From a virus, in IMG/VR virus record IMGVR_UViG_3300020172_004437, positions 1-44,446 of that record: a DNA stretch of 44,446 nucleotides; one strand, 5' to 3'. The notes under the pieces were generated by a model. The model ran no database searches. It was given only the letters and a program-made list of their open reading frames with translations, and had not been told where the DNA came from. Below, in pieces: positions 3,211-34,724 of this stretch. Each line of letters opens with the position of its first letter. Within the stretch, counting starts at the first letter, position 1. The translations under genes and the position numbers were made by a program.

Positions 3211-3234
3211 TAAAACACTATAGATAACCTAAAG

Positions 3235-3268
3235 ACCCTTACTGTAATAGTAGGGGTTTTTTATTTAT
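3235..3268 (+). terminator. Terminator of the YceI gene
   Basis: A 9-bp stem ACCCTTACT/AGTAGGGGT around GTAAT is followed by TTTTTTATTT. Confidence 0.85.
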
Positions 3269-3357
3269 AGGATAATGAAACATTCTAATCCATTCATTCC
3301 ATCCTACCGTTCGTAAACTCACTACGGATTTCATTCAGGATTAGATTCTTTCATTAT

Positions 3358-3416
3358 GTATATTTCACGTAGTATCGTATAATTTAAGTATATTTCCGTA
3401 TCATTACGTATATTTC
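3358..3416 (+). repeat. Three GTATATTTC iteron-like repeats
   Basis: Copies start at 3358, 3388 and 3408, each preceded by AT, AA or AC and followed by ACG, CG or ACC. Spacings are 30 and 20 nt. Confidence 0.55.
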
Positions 3417-3426
3417 ACCATAATCC

Positions 3427-3449
3427 TTATGTATAGAGATTATACATAA
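3427..3449. repeat. Perfect hairpin TTATGTATA/TATACATAA
   Basis: A 9-bp perfect inverted repeat with a 5-nt loop GAGAT. A second pair TGTATAGA/TCTATACA follows within 40 nt. Confidence 0.7.
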
Positions 3450-3582
3450 CAACTTACTCGTGTATAGAAAATCAAATAATCTATACATAATCATTTTATC
3501 GTAATCCACATTACTGTAATGTATATTACCGTACAGGAATATTCATAGTACAATACACTGTTTACTGTCAGTTTATTACCAT

Positions 3583-3608
3583 ACGGTAAAATCCCCCCTT
3601 TTTACCGT
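3583..3608. repeat. Perfect hairpin with C-run loop
   Basis: ACGGTAAAA and TTTTACCGT pair over 9 bp, leaving the loop TCCCCCCT. Confidence 0.7.
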
Positions 3609-3735
3609 GTCCCCCATATATGAGATGACTATGTGAGGGACAGATATAATACTCTGATTATATAATACTTCTAAACAATACCTTCGGTAATATACGAGGT
3701 ATTATAAACTATAGAGTATAGTGTATGGTGACTAA

Positions 3736-3803
3736 GGGATTATATGAGATAACATATAAAAGATACCTACGGTATAAAACTATATGTTATTAGATATAAT
3801 CCC
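3736..3803. repeat. 68-nt three-tier perfect hairpin
   Basis: Nested stems GGGATTATAT/ATATAATCCC (10 bp), ATAACATATA/TATATGTTAT (10 bp) and ATACC/GGTAT (5 bp) are separated by small asymmetric internal loops (GAG/TAG, AAAG/AAAAC). An outer GTGACTA (3728) can pair with TAGTCAC (3836). All 25 bp are perfect, which implies selection for structure. Confidence 0.8.
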
Positions 3804-4197
3804 CACTTTATACCACTAAGTTATCTGTCTATTAATAGTCACTACGAAGGGGACTAATTTATCGGTCAAACTATGGTCATATATCGGTCAGATAACACCC
3901 TCTAACGAGGGGTCGTTGAAGGATAATCCTAACACACTACGTGTTACCCACGCCTCTGTACCATAACTTCTATTATTCTCTGGAGTTCACATATACCTAA
4001 AAAAACCTTTCTAACAGTACTCTCAGAGGGGAAAAAGTGGTCTTTACTATAGCGTCAGGTACGATAGTGGTGGTAGAAAGTGGGGGAGAGTGTATAGAGA
4101 GTGGGGATTAAAACCCTGTAAAGCGATTATCCCCATCGTAAAGGGTGACTGACATTTTGACAATTCCAAATTTTTTAACACTTATTTTTAAAAAAAG

Positions 4198-4259
4198 TTA
4201 TCAACAATTCCCCCCTGACAGTGTGTCAGGACCAATGTGGATAAAAAAAGTTATTCACA
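4198..4259. promoter_or_regulatory. Cluster of DnaA-box-like sites
   Basis: TTATCAACA at 4198-4206, TGTGGATAA at 4236-4244 (exact TTATCCACA on the minus strand) and TTATTCACA at 4251-4259, with the CTGACA-GTG-TGTCAG stem (4215-4229) between. Binding by host DnaA is inferred from the consensus only. Confidence 0.6.
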
Positions 4260-4314
4260 TTTAATATGTTCATAACTATATTTTATTGTACCCTCTTTCA
4301 AGGTATATATTATT

Positions 4315-4629
4315 ATGGACAATATGACAGACAAAATCTTAGATGGATTGACTTTCAAGGTGAGTTCAATAGAGAATAACTATAGTGTAAGATACTATGG
4401 TAAGAGTGGGGGAAGAGCACTCGGAATAATAAGGTTCACAGTAAACCATAAGGTCGATGGTAGAATCCCTCAGGTAATCCCTATTATAACTTCAATGGAC
4501 CTAAATGAATTAATCGGTTATATAATGGGGATGAATAATCTCTCAGCTAATATGGGGGATTACATTGTCTATCTAATCAGGTCCCACTCCACCAAGATTG
4601 TTAAGGAAGAAGTTCCCTCCTTCTATTAA
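4315..4629 (+). CDS. Hypothetical protein beside the candidate origin
   Basis: 104 aa, moderately basic, with no tag, signal peptide or membrane segment. Strands YSVRYYGKSGG, LGIIRFTVNH and PQVIPIITS alternate with a helix LNELIGYIMGM, suggesting a small alpha/beta fold. It begins 55 nt after the last DnaA-like box, so a replication or origin-binding role is possible but rests on position only. A perfect hairpin CCTTATA/TATAAGG follows within 40 nt. Confidence 0.6.
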   Translation: MDNMTDKILDGLTFKVSSIENNYSVRYYGKSGGRALGIIRFTVNHKVDGRIPQVIPIITSMDLNELIGYIMGMNNLSANMGDYIVYLIRSHSTKIVKEEVPSFY

Positions 4630-4761
4630 AGATGGGGAACCCTTATAAAAAAATATAAGGCAGGTTGGAGTCTACCCTCTGCAACCCCACTGTTGGTTGA
4701 ACCCGTCTCGAACTTAATCACCGACACTACAAAGGTAGTGATAATATTTGACACTACCAAA

Positions 4762-23723: not shown

Positions 23724-24740
23724 ATGAAAAAAATTATAAAATTAAACGAAAGTGATTTAAGAAGAATAGTTACTAAAGTTATAAAAGAACACGACAACAA
23801 TATTGTTGAGCCAACAGGTCAATATTTTACTTTAGGTGGTTTTTACTTTTACGTTGATGGTAGTAAAATGTTTTTAGCTGACAGAACAAATGGTGAACTG
23901 TCCCCTAATTTATCTGTTGAATTCCCGTCAACTACTGAGATATCTGCCGAATGGACTCAAAAAACTCAAGAAGTCGATGACGAAAACATTAAAGGTAAAG
24001 AATTAACAGGTTTGTCATTTGACCAAAAAATGAAAAACGCAATCAATTACGGTAAGTTTATTTACACTAAGAACGAAGCTATTGTTAATTTTGGAAGTAT
24101 GATTCCTTTATTATTTTTCTCTCAAAAATTTATAGCACCAACATTAGGAGGTATTGTAGTTGGAACTGAATTCCCTGACGGAGTAGAGGGAAAAATTAAT
24201 TTAATTGACGCAAAACCAGGTAATAAAATATTCTTCCAACAATCGGCATTTAAACACGGTAAAGAATATGGTATTAGATTAGAAGTTGCAATGCACGGAC
24301 AACCAATTTCATTAAAAGATTTTGGAATTAATCAAAATATGTTAAAATTACCTAAAACTTATAATATCGGTGAATTTTTTGCCGAAAATAGTGCAACCCC
24401 ACATAACCTACATACCGCATCTTTTATTAAAACAATTAAAGATTTTATATCTAACGGTGGTAAAGTTAATAGATTAATGATTAACGCATCAACATCTAAA
24501 TTACCTGCAGGTCATATGGATAATGACACAAATAATTCTAAATGGTCTGATAATACAGAATTTAATGATTTAGTTGTTGGTAATAATGATGACGGAAGCG
24601 GTAATTTACAATTATGTAAAGCTAAAGCATATAACACTTATAATGAATTAAAAAAGGCAATTCCTGAATTGAATAGTGCCCCTTATGTTTTAAAAGCGGC
24701 GGGTCCTTTAGGTGAGTATGTTCACGTTAAATTTGAATAA
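23724..24740 (+). CDS. Tagged beta-rich protein with possible OmpA-like end
   Basis: 338 aa starting MKKIIKLNESDLRRIVTKVI then KE-HDN; LNE-S occurs at residues 7-10 and the helix DLRRIVTKVIKE is the commonest form of this head in aquatic phage proteins as I recall. The body begins with a beta domain (YFTLGGFYFYVDGSKMFLAD). The C-terminal part (VNRLMINASTSKLPAGHMDN ... NLQLCKAKAYNTYNELKK) loosely follows the OmpA-like strand / N-x-x-L-x-x-x-(R/K)A helix plan. Ends at a terminator. Inferred virion protein. Confidence 0.7.
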   Translation: MKKIIKLNESDLRRIVTKVIKEHDNNIVEPTGQYFTLGGFYFYVDGSKMFLADRTNGELSPNLSVEFPSTTEISAEWTQKTQEVDDENIKGKELTGLSFDQKMKNAINYGKFIYTKNEAIVNFGSMIPLLFFSQKFIAPTLGGIVVGTEFPDGVEGKINLIDAKPGNKIFFQQSAFKHGKEYGIRLEVAMHGQPISLKDFGINQNMLKLPKTYNIGEFFAENSATPHNLHTASFIKTIKDFISNGGKVNRLMINASTSKLPAGHMDNDTNNSKWSDNTEFNDLVVGNNDDGSGNLQLCKAKAYNTYNELKKAIPELNSAPYVLKAAGPLGEYVHVKFE

Positions 24741-24833: not shown

Positions 24834-24907
24834 GGTAGTGGTAGCTCAGAAGGTAGAGCATTCGTTCAAAAAACGGTGTGCCATTGGTTCGATTCCAATC
24901 CCTACCA
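24834..24907 (+). tRNA. tRNA with bulged acceptor stem, anticodon uncertain (AAA by position)
   Basis: D-arm GCTC-AGAAGGTA-GAGC and T-arm ATTGG-TTCGATT-CCAAT are canonical. The acceptor pairs as GGTAG(T)GG with CCCTACC, which needs one bulged T. The anticodon arm TTCGT-TCAAAAA-ACGGT has a T-T mismatch at the top and C instead of U at position 33; counting gives anticodon AAA (Phe). A homopolymer sequencing error in the A run would change this. CCA is not fully encoded (ACA follows). A functional but diverged tRNA, or a decoy, are both possible. Confidence 0.75.
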
Positions 24908-24927
24908 CAAAAAAAGATAAAAAAAAA

Positions 24928-24959
24928 TTTGACAAATTCAGATTCAATTATTATCTTTG
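24928..24959 (+). promoter_or_regulatory. Host-type promoter of the RNA unit
   Basis: TTTG (24928-24931), N20, TATCTTTG (24952-24959). No plausible ORF starts just downstream. Confidence 0.75.
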
Positions 24960-24964
24960 AAGTA

Positions 24965-25266
24965 TTGAACAGAGGGATTTTTTTTCAAGGGTTTTCATTC
25001 ACTACACCCGCAGATTTTATCATACCTCTTTAAACTAAAAGAAAAAACGAATTCAAAGTGATAAGGTTTACAGGTTGGAAATACCTTAACTACATCCTAG
25101 TGTACACTAAAATAAGTTTAAAGTTGCCAGGGTTTTTTACTCACTTTCGTCCTACAATAAAAGTGGTGGAAGTTCAAACCACACAGGTCCAAGGAGTCCT
25201 AAGTAAAAATTCTAAAAAATTCCCGACGGGGAGTACAAGGGGAGACGACGGTCTCCCCTTTTTTAT
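24965..25266 (+). ncRNA. Candidate structured non-coding RNA, about 300 nt
   Basis: The unit is bounded by a consensus promoter (24928-24959) and a strong hairpin terminator (25239-25266). A 72-codon frame inside starts within structured sequence and has no recognisable protein features. Complementary segments include AGAGG (24971) with CCTCT (25025), a TAAGGT/ACCTTA hairpin near 25071-25087, the palindrome TAGTGTACACTA (25099-25110), GTGG/CCAC around 25165-25181, and CCCGACGGGG near 25223. I could not fit it to tmRNA, RNase P RNA or 6S RNA by eye. Probably a phage RNA of unknown type, co-located with the tRNA. Confidence 0.6.
25239..25266 (+). terminator. Terminator of the RNA unit
   Basis: GGGGAGAC-GACG-GTCTCCCC followed by TTTTTTATTT. 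Confidence 0.9.
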
Positions 25267-25276
25267 TTTATCTTGA

Positions 25277-25284
25277 TATTTATA
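25277..25284 (+). promoter_or_regulatory. TATTTATA box for the 25304 gene
   Basis: TTGATATTTATAATTATA, 19 nt before the ATG at 25304. Confidence 0.6.
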
Positions 25285-25303
25285 ATTATAAAACTACCAA
25301 GAT

Positions 25304-25570
25304 ATGAAAAAGATTATTGACTGGGTTTCAGGCCTATTTAAAGACGAGAAGGGAACTCCTTCATCAAAAAGATTCGTAGGAATCGTATGTGCGTTAACAC
25401 TTTGTGCGACAATGTATGTTAACAGTTATTCACACGGTGATATAAAACCCGCAGATTCATTAGTAAATGCGGTTGCGTTATTAGCTTTCGGATGTTTAGG
25501 TTTATCATCATTTGATAAATTTACTGCAATGAAAAAAGATGTCGCAGAAGCAACTAAAGAACAAGAGTAA
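25304..25570 (+). CDS. Holin-like two-helix membrane protein
   Basis: 88 aa: amphipathic N-terminus (MKKIIDWVSGLFKDEKGTPS), two hydrophobic segments (about 25-41 and 53-68, the latter VNAVALLAFGCLGLSS), and a charged tail (MKKDVAEATKEQE). The topology and size are those of a holin or of the small membrane proteins often found with phage lysins. Flanked by a TATTTATA box and a terminator, so a single-gene late unit. Second holin candidate after 12834. Confidence 0.65.
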   Translation: MKKIIDWVSGLFKDEKGTPSSKRFVGIVCALTLCATMYVNSYSHGDIKPADSLVNAVALLAFGCLGLSSFDKFTAMKKDVAEATKEQE

Positions 25571-25630: not shown

Positions 25631-25640
25631 ATAATTGGGT

Positions 25641-26054
25641 ATGGAAATTTTAAACACACACCCAATTAAAAAATCTGACTTAGGATTTCACGGAAATTTA
25701 TTTGGTGGTAAGTTATTGGCTTGGATTGACGCTGCGGCTGCGGGATATTCTATGCAATTATGTGACTCCCCAAGAATGGTTACAGTATCTATTGATAAAT
25801 GTTTTTTTGAAAAACCTGCAAAAGAAGGTCAATTACTTAAAATTTATGGATACCCAAGCAAATTAGGAAACACTTCAGTTACTCTATATATGGAGGCGAG
25901 AGCTCACAATGTTTATACAGGTAATCAAGCGGTAGTACTTAAAACCAATATAAGATTTGTTAATATTGATGAAGAAGGTAACCCAATACCTATAGGAGAA
26001 AAAGGTAGGAGAAGAATTGAAAAATTAATAGAACAAAATAATTTGGTAGAATAA
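25641..26054 (+). CDS. Acyl-CoA thioesterase (hotdog fold, YciA/BACH-like)
   Basis: 137 aa from ATG 25641 (a TTG six nt upstream is rejected). DLGFHGNLFGGKLLAWIDAA is the hallmark hotdog helix region of YciA-type thioesterases, followed by MVTVSIDKCFFEKPAKEGQ and a final strand VVLKTNIRFVNID. The family hydrolyses acyl-CoA thioesters in the cytoplasm as a hexamer. The sequence is nearly complete compared with cellular enzymes. No promoter of either class is evident upstream. An uncommon phage-borne metabolic gene that could alter host membrane lipid supply. Confidence 0.85.
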   Translation: MEILNTHPIKKSDLGFHGNLFGGKLLAWIDAAAAGYSMQLCDSPRMVTVSIDKCFFEKPAKEGQLLKIYGYPSKLGNTSVTLYMEARAHNVYTGNQAVVLKTNIRFVNIDEEGNPIPIGEKGRRRIEKLIEQNNLVE

Positions 26055-26820: not shown

Positions 26821-27846
26821 ATGAAAAGAAAATTCGATTTTAAAGATATTACTATAGTACCTGAAACAGTATCATCAATTAGTAGTCGTAGTGAAGTTAA
26901 TATCTTAAATGAACAGGGAGAACTACCAATTATGGTATCCCCAATGGATACCGTAGTTGATTTAAATAACTATAAACAATTTATCGATTTAAACATTCCC
27001 GTTTGTTTACCTCGAGGTGAGGATTTGGTTGACGACGCATTTTATTCGGTTTCATTAGAAGAATTTGAAACTATTGTTAATCATTATTTAGAACCAGGTT
27101 TAAATATTAAACTTAAAATATTGGTTGATATTGCCAATGGTCACATTAAAAAATTACACGATTTATGTGAAAAATTTATCAGTAAGCGAGATAAAACATT
27201 ACATACATTAATGGTCGGTAATATTGCTAATCCTAAAACTTATAAACAGTTTGGTAAAATAGGTGTTGACTATGTTAGAGTTGGAATTGGTGGTGGTTCA
27301 GGATGTCTAACTTCCGCAAATACTGGGGTACATTACCCAATGGCATCATTGATTAATGAATGTTATGAGTTTAAGAAAAAATACGATTTTGAAACCAAAA
27401 TTGTTGCGGATGGGGGTTTTAGAAATTACGATGATATTATTAAAGCTTTGATGTTAGGTGCGGATTATGTGATGTTAGGGGGAATTTTAAATAAATGTTT
27501 AGAATCTTGTTCAGAAACTAAATTATTCAATAAGATTAAACTATCTCAAAACATCTCAAATTATATTTGGATTTATTATCCTAAATTAAGACAATTTTTA
27601 TATAAATCATTTAGAGGTATGAGTACTAAAGATGTTCAAAAAAAATGGAATAAAAATATATTAAAAACATCTGAAGGTATTGTCAAAACAAATAAAGTTG
27701 AGTATACTTTAAATCAGTGGACAGATAATTTTAAAGATTACTTAAAATCGGCGATGTCGTACACCAATTCAAATACTTTAGAATCTTTCAAAGACTCCGA
27801 ATACGTTTTTATAACCGAAAATGCTCTTAAAAGATTTAATAAATAA
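26821..27846 (+). CDS. IMP dehydrogenase / GMP reductase family enzyme
   Basis: 341 aa, a TIM barrel without CBS domains. Seen: FDFKDITIVPETVSS near the start, IMVSPMDTVVD, the active-site loop GIGGGSGCLTSANTGVHYP with C162, IVADGGFRNYDD, ALMLGADYVMLGG, and a degenerate flap FRGMSTKDVQKKW. IMPDH oxidises IMP to XMP; GMPR reduces GMP to IMP; both use the same Cys. The length and lack of CBS favour a GMPR-like enzyme, but the loop GGGSGCLTSA departs from the usual GPGSxCTTR, so specificity is open. Would redirect guanine nucleotide pools during infection. Confidence 0.85.
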   Translation: MKRKFDFKDITIVPETVSSISSRSEVNILNEQGELPIMVSPMDTVVDLNNYKQFIDLNIPVCLPRGEDLVDDAFYSVSLEEFETIVNHYLEPGLNIKLKILVDIANGHIKKLHDLCEKFISKRDKTLHTLMVGNIANPKTYKQFGKIGVDYVRVGIGGGSGCLTSANTGVHYPMASLINECYEFKKKYDFETKIVADGGFRNYDDIIKALMLGADYVMLGGILNKCLESCSETKLFNKIKLSQNISNYIWIYYPKLRQFLYKSFRGMSTKDVQKKWNKNILKTSEGIVKTNKVEYTLNQWTDNFKDYLKSAMSYTNSNTLESFKDSEYVFITENALKRFNK

Positions 27847-30869: not shown

Positions 30870-31587
30870 CTTAAACGAGGAAATAAATCGAATAAAAAAA
30901 TTATCTAATATTAATGAATCGGTCCTTAATGAAGGATTGTTTGATGATATTAAAAAATTAATGTCAATCGCTTCTGACGATATGAAGAGTAATGAAATAT
31001 ATAAAAAATTAATTGACTATTTTAAAGAATTAATTCCTGGTGTAGATTCACAAACTTCCGCAAGTCAACTTAGAATAAGTGAAAAAGGCCAAGAATTATT
31101 AGATAATCCTGTGTTTAAACAAAAATTAAAAGAAATTTCAGATGCAATTAATATTGATGAGCAATCAATTATAAAACTAATGAATCACGAGTCAGGATTG
31201 GACCCAACAATTAAAAATAGTATTGGTTGTGTTGGTTTAATTCAATTTTGTCCTAGTGGTGGAGGTACTAAAAAAATTAATGGTAAAAATTATTCTTTAG
31301 AAGACTTAAGAAATGATTTAGAGGTTCAAATGGAAGCTATTAAACAATTTTGGTTATCAGGATATAATTCTGGTAAAATTAAAAGTCCTGAAGATTTATA
31401 CATTTATAATTTTTTCCCTATCGCAGCTGGAAAATCTGATGACTTTGTATTACAAAGTAGTGACTTGTCTGCAGAAACCGTTGCAAATTCAAATCCAGTG
31501 TTTAATAGAACTCTTAATAGAAAAAGAAACACACCGTTAACTGTTGGTGATTTAAAAGATTATTATCAAAAAACGGGAATGGTTTAA
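30859..31587 (+). CDS. Tagged lytic-transglycosylase-like protein
   Basis: 242 aa starting MKNNLNEEINRIKKLSNINE-S and VLNE-G, two cleavage-like motifs at about residues 17-20 and 22-26. Residues about 86-215 resemble a soluble lytic transglycosylase: MNHESGLDPTIKN with catalytic-type E111, then SIGCVGLIQFCPSGG replacing the usual A-x-G-L-x-Q, and FFPIAAGKSDD where family members have the YNxG region. It would cleave the glycan strand of peptidoglycan, and the head-type tag suggests delivery within the virion. The 3' end overlaps the PPK2 gene by 4 nt. Confidence 0.75.
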   Translation: MKNNLNEEINRIKKLSNINESVLNEGLFDDIKKLMSIASDDMKSNEIYKKLIDYFKELIPGVDSQTSASQLRISEKGQELLDNPVFKQKLKEISDAINIDEQSIIKLMNHESGLDPTIKNSIGCVGLIQFCPSGGGTKKINGKNYSLEDLRNDLEVQMEAIKQFWLSGYNSGKIKSPEDLYIYNFFPIAAGKSDDFVLQSSDLSAETVANSNPVFNRTLNRKRNTPLTVGDLKDYYQKTGMV

Positions 31588-32681
31588 TTCTCAGGTTTTA
31601 ATACCGTAAGAGCTTCAGGGTATTCTTTATTTAAAAGATTTTCATTTTTACCTTCGTAAGGGATATTTTGTAATACGTATCTTATTGCATTTAAACCTGA
31701 TATTTTCTTATCTATTGCGTCCAAAATAACCCAAGGATGATTCATAGTTGAAGTTTTGTCGAATAACTTTTCTTTAAACTCAGTAAATCTATCCCATAAA
31801 TCTTGCATTCTTGAATCGTTTGGAGAATACTTCCAATATTTTAAAGGTGATTTTTGTCTCATATCAAATCTTTTTGCTTGAGTTTCTTTATCAATTGAAA
31901 ACCAAAGTTTAAATAAAAAGTCACCATCTTTAATTAATGAGTTCTCAAAGTCCTCAACACCATCCATAAACTGTTGGTATTCTTCATCAGAACCATAACC
32001 CATAACAGGCTCAACTAATCCTCTGTTATACCAACTTCTATCAAATAGATTAATTTTGCCTTTTTCTATTTGTGATTCGTATCTCTGCCACCAATTTTTT
32101 CTTTCTTCAGGTGTTGGAATTCCCATCGCAATTACTTTATAACCTCTTGGGTTCATATTTTCAATAAATTTCTTAATTGTTGAACCTTTACCAGCGCTAT
32201 CCCTTCCTTCAAAAACAATAATAACAGTTTTATTATTTTTACTTAACCATTCTTGTAACTTTAATAATTCAACCTGTAATCCAAAAAGTTCTTTACGATA
32301 TATTTTTTTAGGAACAATCGAAGGTTCCTGAGGTTCAAACGAGTAATCATCAGATTCTGGCTCAACATTATAACTGTCAGTTTCCCTATTTTTTAAAGAC
32401 TTAACAACTTTGTCAAAATAATTCTCAACGCTTTTTTTCTTATTACCTTTCTTTAATAATACTTTTTTAAGACCTCTATCTAATAATTCAAAATCAATAA
32501 TCCTTTCGTCACCCATTTTAATTATTGAACTAAGATTTTGTTCAACGTTAGGGGTTAACATATTGTTAAAAGATAAAATATCTTTAATTCTTTTAACATA
32601 ATCTTGAGTAGACCCTTCGTTAATAGGCTCCCCTGTTATTATTTTATTAATCTTATAGATTTCTTTTAGCAATTTGTCCAT
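31584..32681 (-). CDS. ppk2: Tagged polyphosphate kinase 2
   Basis: 365 aa. Residues about 130-350 are a PPK2 domain: Walker A GRDSAGKGST (159-168), FDRSWYNRGLVEPVM (Walker B region, about 213-227), lid residues QAKRFDMRQKSPLKYWKYSP and a C-terminal DAIDKK. PPK2 transfers phosphate between polyphosphate and nucleoside di/monophosphates. The 120-residue N-terminal extension begins MDKLLKEIYKINKIITGEPI with INE-G at 20-23, the same tag and cleavage-like motif as the unrelated transglycosylase next to it. This suggests a packaged enzyme that could supply NTPs from polyphosphate at entry. Fully intact by motifs. Confidence 0.9.
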   Translation of the reverse strand: MDKLLKEIYKINKIITGEPINEGSTQDYVKRIKDILSFNNMLTPNVEQNLSSIIKMGDERIIDFELLDRGLKKVLLKKGNKKKSVENYFDKVVKSLKNRETDSYNVEPESDDYSFEPQEPSIVPKKIYRKELFGLQVELLKLQEWLSKNNKTVIIVFEGRDSAGKGSTIKKFIENMNPRGYKVIAMGIPTPEERKNWWQRYESQIEKGKINLFDRSWYNRGLVEPVMGYGSDEEYQQFMDGVEDFENSLIKDGDFLFKLWFSIDKETQAKRFDMRQKSPLKYWKYSPNDSRMQDLWDRFTEFKEKLFDKTSTMNHPWVILDAIDKKISGLNAIRYVLQNIPYEGKNENLLNKEYPEALTVLKPEN

Positions 32682-32819: not shown

Positions 32820-34724
32820 ATGAAAAAACTTCTAGTGGCCGCCTTGTTATTGCTAACAAGTTCGGTCGGATTCTCTCAAACGTGTCCTACTCCCACGTCA
32901 TCAGGAGTATACGTCACTCTCGACACAAATTATCAATTAGGTACTGTTGCTGCAGGTTTTACAGATGTGGGTATGTGTTTTTACAATAACACAACCACAG
33001 ACATTACTGCTTTTCAGTATAGAGTTTATTACGATAATAACGCCTTTTCAGGTGTTGACACCGTAACCTCATTGAATACATCATTTTCACAATATCTTAA
33101 CTACGTTGATAACCCAACTAATGGATATGTGACAATTACTTTAACTTACACAGGTTCATTGGCGACTTTTGAAATACCAAATGGTCCTATAATTAATTTA
33201 AAGTTAAATCACGTTACAGGATTTGCTTCTTTAACCTCTGTTGCAAATATGTCATTTGGAACTGTGGTTACTTTCCCCGCAATATCGACAAAACAAGATG
33301 GTACTGATAATACATTAACACTTCAAAATTTTGGAGGTATAATGTTACCTCAAACAATGTCTTATCACGGTACGTTCACAAACGTAACAGGAACAGGGGC
33401 TAAAAATTTAACTGTAGGTCTTGAAAAAAGATTAAGACCAAGCGGTTCTTGGACATCGGTAACATCGGCATTAACCAATATTAATGGTGATTTCGCGTTT
33501 AACTCAATTGCTATCGATACTACAGGTTATGATGTTCGTTTAGCAATTGTTGGGGATACTATGAGTGTTGGTAATGTAATTTCTACCGCGGATGCTCAGA
33601 AAGTTAACGACTATGTATTGGGTACACAAACCCCGTTAGGATTTGATTATTACGCTTCAGATGTTAATGGTGATAATAGTATTTCTGTTTCAGATGCTTA
33701 CGGCGTTTTTGGTAGAATCTCAGGTAGATTCAGTCAATGGCCGAACAATGTTAAAGATGTTAAATTCTTTACTGTTTCACAATACAACACTATTAACGGG
33801 TCTTCAACAAACCACACATCTTCAATTGCTGGTGTGACTAATTTCTATCATAACATTATTGCAGGTCAACCTGATTCTGTAACATTTTATGTATTAGTTC
33901 CTGGTGATGCGAACGGTACTGGATTTCATATGGCTCGTGTAACACCAATAGAAGTTTTAATTAACCCTACTCCAGGAGTTGAATCTCAAATATATAACGT
34001 TATTGATAATAGAGTTGAGTACGATTTTCCTACAACATCTATTGAAGTTAATGTACCAAGATTATCTGTTCAAGAAGGTAATTTAGTGAACATTCCTGTT
34101 AAAGTCTTAACTAATAATACCGAATTAGGTTCATTACAATTTGGTTTAAAATATAATGATACTTTATTAGAGTTTAAAGGGATTGAATCAAAATCTTCAT
34201 CTTCAAGTTGGTTAACATATTTAAACACAAACGATAATCAAATTGATTGGGGTGGTTATGATGTTAGTAAACATTTAAAACCTTTAAGAAATAATGATGA
34301 GGTTATTACTTTAAAATTTATTGCAAAACAACCACAATCTTCTTGGGATGAAAGTCCTCTTTGGACTACTAATAAATTTGCTGGAGATAACACTTGTAAA
34401 GATTTGGAAATAACCCCAACAAATGGAATTGTCCAAGTTTACAAAATGGTTAATGGTAATTTGACGGATATTAATGGTATGATTGTATTCCCTAATCCTA
34501 CAGAAGACTTCACAACTATTAAATTTGAAGTTAAAGAATACGGTCCTGTTAAATTATCTGTTTACAGTGTAAATGGAGGTGAATGTAAGGTAATTGTAAA
34601 CGATACAATGCCTGAAGGGAATTATCAATATAGTACAAATCTTGGGTTTTTACCATCAGGAGTTTATTTTGCGGTACTTAGAAGAACCGACAAACAACTA
34701 ACAAGTAAAATAATACTTAAATAA
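32820..34724 (+). CDS. Secreted cohesin/dockerin-like protein with T9SS sorting domain
   Basis: 634 aa. Signal peptide MKKLLVAALLLLTSSVGFSQ (cut after FSQ). Residues about 25-165 and 410-525 are cohesin-like beta sandwiches (second: PRLSVQEGNLVNIPVKVLTN, FGLKYNDTLLEFKGIE). Residues about 250-300 are dockerin-like with two calcium loops, the second SDVNGDNSISVSDAYGVF. Residues about 553-634 (MIVFPNPTEDFTTIKFEV ... SGVYFAVLRRTDKQLTSKIIL) are a type A C-terminal T9SS sorting domain, typical only of Bacteroidetes. The protein should be exported by the host and attached to its surface; an adhesin or receptor-masking role is inference. Confidence 0.85.
   Translation: MKKLLVAALLLLTSSVGFSQTCPTPTSSGVYVTLDTNYQLGTVAAGFTDVGMCFYNNTTTDITAFQYRVYYDNNAFSGVDTVTSLNTSFSQYLNYVDNPTNGYVTITLTYTGSLATFEIPNGPIINLKLNHVTGFASLTSVANMSFGTVVTFPAISTKQDGTDNTLTLQNFGGIMLPQTMSYHGTFTNVTGTGAKNLTVGLEKRLRPSGSWTSVTSALTNINGDFAFNSIAIDTTGYDVRLAIVGDTMSVGNVISTADAQKVNDYVLGTQTPLGFDYYASDVNGDNSISVSDAYGVFGRISGRFSQWPNNVKDVKFFTVSQYNTINGSSTNHTSSIAGVTNFYHNIIAGQPDSVTFYVLVPGDANGTGFHMARVTPIEVLINPTPGVESQIYNVIDNRVEYDFPTTSIEVNVPRLSVQEGNLVNIPVKVLTNNTELGSLQFGLKYNDTLLEFKGIESKSSSSSWLTYLNTNDNQIDWGGYDVSKHLKPLRNNDEVITLKFIAKQPQSSWDESPLWTTNKFAGDNTCKDLEITPTNGIVQVYKMVNGNLTDINGMIVFPNPTEDFTTIKFEVKEYGPVKLSVYSVNGGECKVIVNDTMPEGNYQYSTNLGFLPSGVYFAVLRRTDKQLTSKIILK

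Follow-up and report, generated by a model that had tools for sequence, protein, structure and literature searches.

The DNA analyzed here, a stretch of 44,446 nucleotides from IMG/VR virus record IMGVR_UViG_3300020172_004437 (the window), appears to carry a new, lineage-restricted RNA gene of a large Flavobacterium-type phage, an independent gene that would act in trans; we assign this reading a probability of roughly 0.7. The putative gene extends from its predicted start into a T tract (24964 to 25262), corresponding to a predicted transcript of ~299 to 303 nt, and lies on the plus strand, as do its promoter and terminator, the neighboring tRNA, and the next gene downstream. Homologues were found at three other viral loci, namely, L002 (contig 3300042402_003388), L003 (contig 3300021962_000028; 158.6 kb), and L104 (3300042564_004473), and the window and these three loci are the four members compared below. 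An initial annotation had noticed a gene-free stretch of about 300 nt between a promoter and a terminator. This stretch was borne out, and the sequence data support its reading as a promoter-to-terminator RNA unit.

Promoter and terminator

A predicted sigma-A promoter of the Bacteroidota type spans positions 24928 to 24959 and consists of TTTG (24928 to 24931) and, after 20 nt, the -7 box TATCTTTG (24952 to 24959). A passage of PMC9723704 places the TAnnTTTG box of F. psychrophilum at -12 to -5, and from this position the start of the RNA is predicted at 24964. The consensus promoter of the initial annotation is present as TTGACA-17-TATCTT (24929 to 24957; 10/12), the best sigma-70-type match between 24000 and 26500. 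Taken alone, the promoter match is a weak one, since it occurs at near chance frequency: 7 suitably spaced pairs of TTTG and a -7 box were found on both strands of the whole window, versus 3.2 ± 1.9 expected. Its conservation in the relatives weighs more than the match itself. The promoter aligns in all four members, TTTGAC is invariant, and the -7 boxes read TATCTTTG, TATCTTTG, TATCATTT, and TATATTTG, of which the degenerate TATCATTT belongs to L003.

At the other end, an intrinsic terminator (25237 to 25266) is formed by GGGGAGAC-GACG-GTCTCCCC and a T tract. What had been described as a perfect 8-bp terminator is indeed a strong one, but the stem of its hairpin (25237 to 25260; 4-nt loop) comprises 10 pairs, 6 of them G-C, and the 8 bp are the GGGGAGAC/GTCTCCCC portion.

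Sequence conservation

The RNA is 86.6 to 90.3% identical in all six pairs of members. Between the window and each relative, third-position identity in genes 23724, 25304, and 25635 is 57.3 to 61.3%, and 38 to 53% of the four-fold sites in the same genes are identical (42/82, 11/27, and 20/38, among others). These values indicate that the RNA is under purifying selection at the nucleotide level, stricter than that on the flanking synonymous sites. Conserved to this degree, the compact RNA gene very probably has an important job. A contrary detail is provided by gene 23060, the third positions of which are 85% identical between the window and L003 but 56.5 to 60.5% identical with L104 and L002; this segment was probably exchanged recently, and the three genes nearest the RNA lack such a signal. 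In segments of 40 nt, conservation rises from 0.60 (24920 to 24959) to 0.92 (24960 to 24999), a step at the predicted start, and is down to 0.72 past the terminator (25260 to 25299), with dips at 25020 to 25059 and at 25120 to 25179, the latter around the loop of the first arm, which is variable.

RNA structure

The four sequences were aligned (92% mean column identity) and realigned for the consensus-fold test. A number of observations can be derived from this alignment and from the window itself. (i) The single-sequence fold has a z score of -1.5, and 10 of 100 shuffles were equally good. Perfect 5-nt inverted repeats outside the terminator number 87, versus 70.9 in shuffles (a count reached by 47/500), and those with at least 3 G/C number 2, versus 6.4. 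The many complementary segments of the initial annotation thus exist but are unremarkable as a set, with little or no excess over shuffles; it is the conservation in homologues and the consensus fold that are above chance, not the single-sequence fold or the repeats. (ii) The consensus fold of the whole RNA has a z score of -4.21, and values of -6.57, -3.80, and -5.41 were obtained for the 3' half (columns 163 to 302), the same half without the terminal hairpins (columns 163 to 255), and columns 256 to 302, respectively, with 0/300 column shuffles as good in each case. (iii) A conserved fold in the 5' half (columns 1 to 162) is unsupported (z score of -1.07; 39/300 column shuffles as good), so that the claim of a structured RNA holds for the 3' half but not for the 5' half. 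Within the latter, a possible alternative helix of columns 49 to 60 with 95 to 106 shows compatible G-U changes, but L003 has two mismatches in it and L104 has one; the possible alternative helices TAAGGT/ACCTTA and TAGT/ACTA are without variation.

The 5' domain (24964 to 25125) has a mean column identity of 94%, with an invariant ATTGAAC start, CTACACCCGCAGATTTT, and the TAGTGTACACTA palindrome in all four members. It is followed by a predicted four-way junction (25134 to 25209), which the consensus fold (z score of -3.80) closes with a helix of 25134 to 25141 and 25202 to 25209 and furnishes with three arms (25142-25147/25160-25165, 25166-25169/25179-25182, and 25185-25187/25198-25200). The first of these arms contains a compensatory pair, C-G in two sequences and A-U in two. 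Directly before the terminator lies a hairpin with a GACG loop (25221 to 25232), in which a compensatory U-A/C-G exchange divides the members two versus two.

In total, 3 of 50 pairs were changed on both sides, namely, C-G/A-U at columns 179 and 202, U-A/C-G at columns 259 and 270, and G-C/A-U at columns 279 and 298. In a hand-built structure, 98.0% of the cells pair and four do not. An alignment of homologous regions had been proposed at the outset as a means of finding covarying pairs; it yielded a covariation score reached by 4/500 shuffles, but the count of three pairs changed on both sides was reached by 100/500. Evidence of covariation from four sequences is thin. More speculative is a possible long-range pseudoknot (24965 to 25177) between TTGAAC at 24965 to 24970 and GTTCAA at 25172 to 25177 in the loop of the second arm, a complementarity that is not improbable by chance; both segments are invariant in all four members and hence beyond test by covariation.

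Neighboring tRNA and downstream gene

The initial annotation placed the unit just after a tRNA. This is tRNA-Phe, at 24834 to 24908, with its own promoter-like TTTATCTTTG box upstream; it is a neighbor but not a part of the unit, since L104 lacks it. Its anticodon is AAA in the window and GAA in L002 and L003, and by eye the base before the anticodon is C for U in the window and in L002. The tRNA of the window is possibly decaying or recoded. In L104, the place of the tRNA is occupied by a gene that ends in a long Thr/Pro/Asn repeat (4140 to 4702 of that locus) and by another terminator-like stretch.

The gene next after the RNA in all four members encodes 88 amino acids (25304 to 25570), has a TATTTATA motif at 25277, 27 nt upstream, and gave no Pfam or PHROG match. 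Of 66 ORF starts, 24 are preceded by TATTTAT at a distance of at most 100 nt, versus 3.8% of random intragenic windows (examples are at 25277, 23700, and 32781), and the motif is probably a promoter or leader element of the phage. In contrast to the TATTTAT often found before genes of this phage, the boxes of the RNA and the tRNA are of the host type.

Distribution

A search of viral contigs for relatives of the downstream gene returned 497 stretches, from which 80 loci were kept. The RNA was found at two of them (L002 and L003) and not at the other 78. L104 was added by a pattern scan across all viral contigs; it has the same 338-aa upstream gene, and its downstream gene is related to that of the other members. 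One exact pattern gave no match in the wider search, and further patterns led only to the contigs behind L082/L002 and L083/L003 and to L104. A looser 16-mer scan returned 20 stretches, 3 of them real, and no further members; the other 17 scored at most 7.2 bits or were not reported by the profile. Two stretches from a pattern scan of bacterial genomes, both in deltaproteobacterial-type genomes (11.0 and 7.5 bits), were rejected.

Models of the 3' half (R1) and the 5' half (R2) were then run over 47 whole records, comprising 41 from the 80 loci, 4 more viral contigs, and 2 cultured phages, with 65 to 73 first-look candidates scored in large records (R1, 73/214 in G031). Besides the window, 3 of the 47 records contain true copies (G001, G002, and G042). 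Among the weak matches, that at L072 is a gene end plus terminator, those at L147 and in the two cultured phages (two matches) lie in or over coding sequence, and the remaining R1 and R2 matches are all below 16 bits. Absence is unproven in the large records, where candidates were scored in part, and in the two cultured phages, for which R1 gave no candidates. BLAST of 41 of these records showed nothing above noise beyond two known copies, and a search of cultured phages and plasmids gave tRNA matches (among the best 20 of 46) or chance matches and no copy of the RNA.

A lectin-domain structural protein of the window is 80 to 81% identical to that of the L002 and L003 records, 63% identical at the amino acid level to that of L104, 63% to that of G031, and 61% to those of G006 to G008; R1 and R2, with candidates partly scored in large records, detected no copy of the RNA in G031 or G006 to G008. 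Judged by two structural proteins, Flavobacterium phage immuto is the closest relative in culture; it has a laboratory host, though no RNA copy was found there with the two models (R1 gave no candidates) and sequence search. The RNA thus appears to be lineage-restricted, or lost and gained, and highly conserved wherever it is present. The 338-aa upstream gene was dismissed as a tied partner, being present without the RNA in G043 and G044.

Comparison with known RNA families

A covariance-model search against Rfam, recommended in the initial annotation, was run on the whole window, and tRNA alone reached its gathering threshold. Up to an E value of 5, 16 other matches were obtained between 24750 and 25350, all far under their own thresholds. 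The earlier impression by eye that the unit is not a tmRNA, RNase P RNA, or 6S RNA was confirmed with ARAGORN and Rfam, which gave no match to any of them. GOLLD and ROOL are described in PMC12286853 as large ornate RNAs of phages and prophages, often near tRNA islands. Like the unit, they are phage encoded, noncoding, and structured, with a function not established, and some members adjoin a tRNA; they differ in being much larger, with many GOLLD members exceeding 800 nt (PMC12286853). Neither GOLLD nor ROOL was matched in the unit by Rfam at the gathering score or up to an E value of 5.

Other systems share single traits with the unit. The stable RNAs C and D of phage T4 are small RNAs of unclear function that lie in a tRNA cluster and are made and processed within the tRNA transcript; the unit is likewise a small phage RNA encoded beside a tRNA, but a promoter and a terminator of its own are predicted for it, and in L104 it is free of a tRNA. 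What links the unit to 6S RNA, including its flavobacterial form, is the possibility of a small RNA binding the RNA polymerase of the host, and we take it as a lead only, since there was no 6S match in Rfam up to an E value of 5 and the 5' half has no significant conserved rod-like fold. Type III toxin-antitoxin systems have the same order of promoter, RNA, terminator, and small gene; however, the unit lacks tandem repeats of a short pseudoknot unit, and the gene that follows matched no toxin family and is mostly found at loci lacking the RNA. Among the traits of a phage structured noncoding RNA, nucleotide-level conservation, a noncoding sequence, and conserved structure in the 3' half were found, and a discrete transcript is predicted from the promoter and terminator; the unit would belong to this broad kind, together with GOLLD and ROOL, but to no tested family. 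In open-access full texts we found no report of such an RNA in Flavobacterium phages, and as judged from this literature, phages of Bacteroidota seem to have been little explored for structured RNAs.

Possible function and alternative explanations

Since its promoter boxes are of the host type, the RNA would be made by the sigma-A RNA polymerase of the host, probably early, and gene 25304 would be transcribed separately. The RNA may then act in trans, its structured 3' half stabilizing it or serving as a scaffold and its nearly invariant 5' half contacting a partner. This partner is probably slow to evolve, because the 5' half is near-constant while one structural protein is only 63% identical; candidates are a conserved protein of the phage and a machine of its host (RNA polymerase, the ribosome, or a nuclease), and a fast-changing set of mRNAs is less likely. 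We tentatively suggest, as one possible form, an early phage effector RNA that binds and alters a conserved host machine, such as RNA polymerase, the ribosome, or an RNA-guided defence, in which case an unchanging host partner would account for the near-invariant 5' half. Such an effector would represent a new factor by which Bacteroidota phages use RNA for host takeover or counter-defence, and action on a host machine would give direct access to RNA-based takeover in a phylum whose promoters and translation initiation are unusual. An exact antisense match of at least 10 nt was not found in the 16S-23S-5S rRNA of E. coli, used as a stand-in. A sub-case of the same explanation with another partner, possible but doubtful, is an antisense small RNA acting on specific mRNAs of the phage or the host: sequence conservation without a significant fold, as seen in the 5' half, would be expected of pairing regions, yet the 44-kb window, which covers phage sequence only, contains no exact antisense match of at least 13 nt and three of 12 nt, which are A/T-rich.

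The main rival of a trans-acting RNA gene is a cis-acting leader or attenuator, in which the RNA senses something and the terminator decides on the transcription of gene 25304. The same gene does stand close behind the terminator in all four members, even in L104, where another gene replaces the tRNA, and by eye the CCC of the hairpin at 25221 could pair with the GGGG of the terminator instead. We nevertheless consider such a leader unlikely, given a strong and conserved terminator, a TATTTATA motif belonging to gene 25304 itself, and the absence of the RNA from 78/80 fetched loci with relatives of this gene; general consensus folding of the alignment showed no antiterminator alternative. A cis duplex with the start of the downstream gene was no better than shuffles (94/100 as good). 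The near-invariant noncoding stretch and its 12-nt palindrome would also suit a DNA-level element (a replication origin or a packaging or recombination site) located between promoter and terminator by coincidence. That is very unlikely, since the borders of conservation match the predicted transcript ends, compensatory changes occur in the terminator and hairpin stems, and a better origin candidate lies at 3211 to 4314. Least plausible is a short conserved coding region under ordinary protein selection, an explanation that we regard as extremely improbable. The sole ORF of more than 60 aa in the unit, a 72-aa frame with a GTG start at 25058, is uninterrupted in the window, and translations of the region are partly alike in the relatives. 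However, in-frame stops or frame shifts disrupt it in all three relatives, so that a protein from this frame is rejected for the four sequences compared; no frame of similar extent is free of interruption in every one of the four members, and in the alignment, read by eye, substitutions in the 5' half hit all three codon positions. Conservation of a codon pattern in the 25058 frame, which the initial annotation had named as evidence against a noncoding RNA, did not appear in the homologues. An independent RNA gene acting in trans thus remains our preferred reading.

Other features of the window

The stretch from 3211 to 4314 comprises 1.1 kb without a credible ORF, with many short inverted repeats (by eye) and a DnaA-box-like TTATTCACA near its end, and is a candidate replication origin. 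An IMP dehydrogenase/GMP reductase-like gene (26821 to 27846) and a 4HBT thioesterase-like gene (25635 to 26054) are possible auxiliary metabolic genes. A gene of the Polyphosphate kinase 2 family (PF03976; E value of 5e-72) is located on the minus strand at 31584 to 32681, and the phage protein encoded at 32820 to 34724 combines a cohesin domain with a C-terminal Por secretion (type IX) sorting domain. The first 23 to 29 residues of the product of 23724 to 24740 (MKKIIKLNESDLRRIV...) recur at the opening of otherwise unmatched proteins in G003, G004, and G008, and this shared N-terminal tag is perhaps a capsid-targeting signal.
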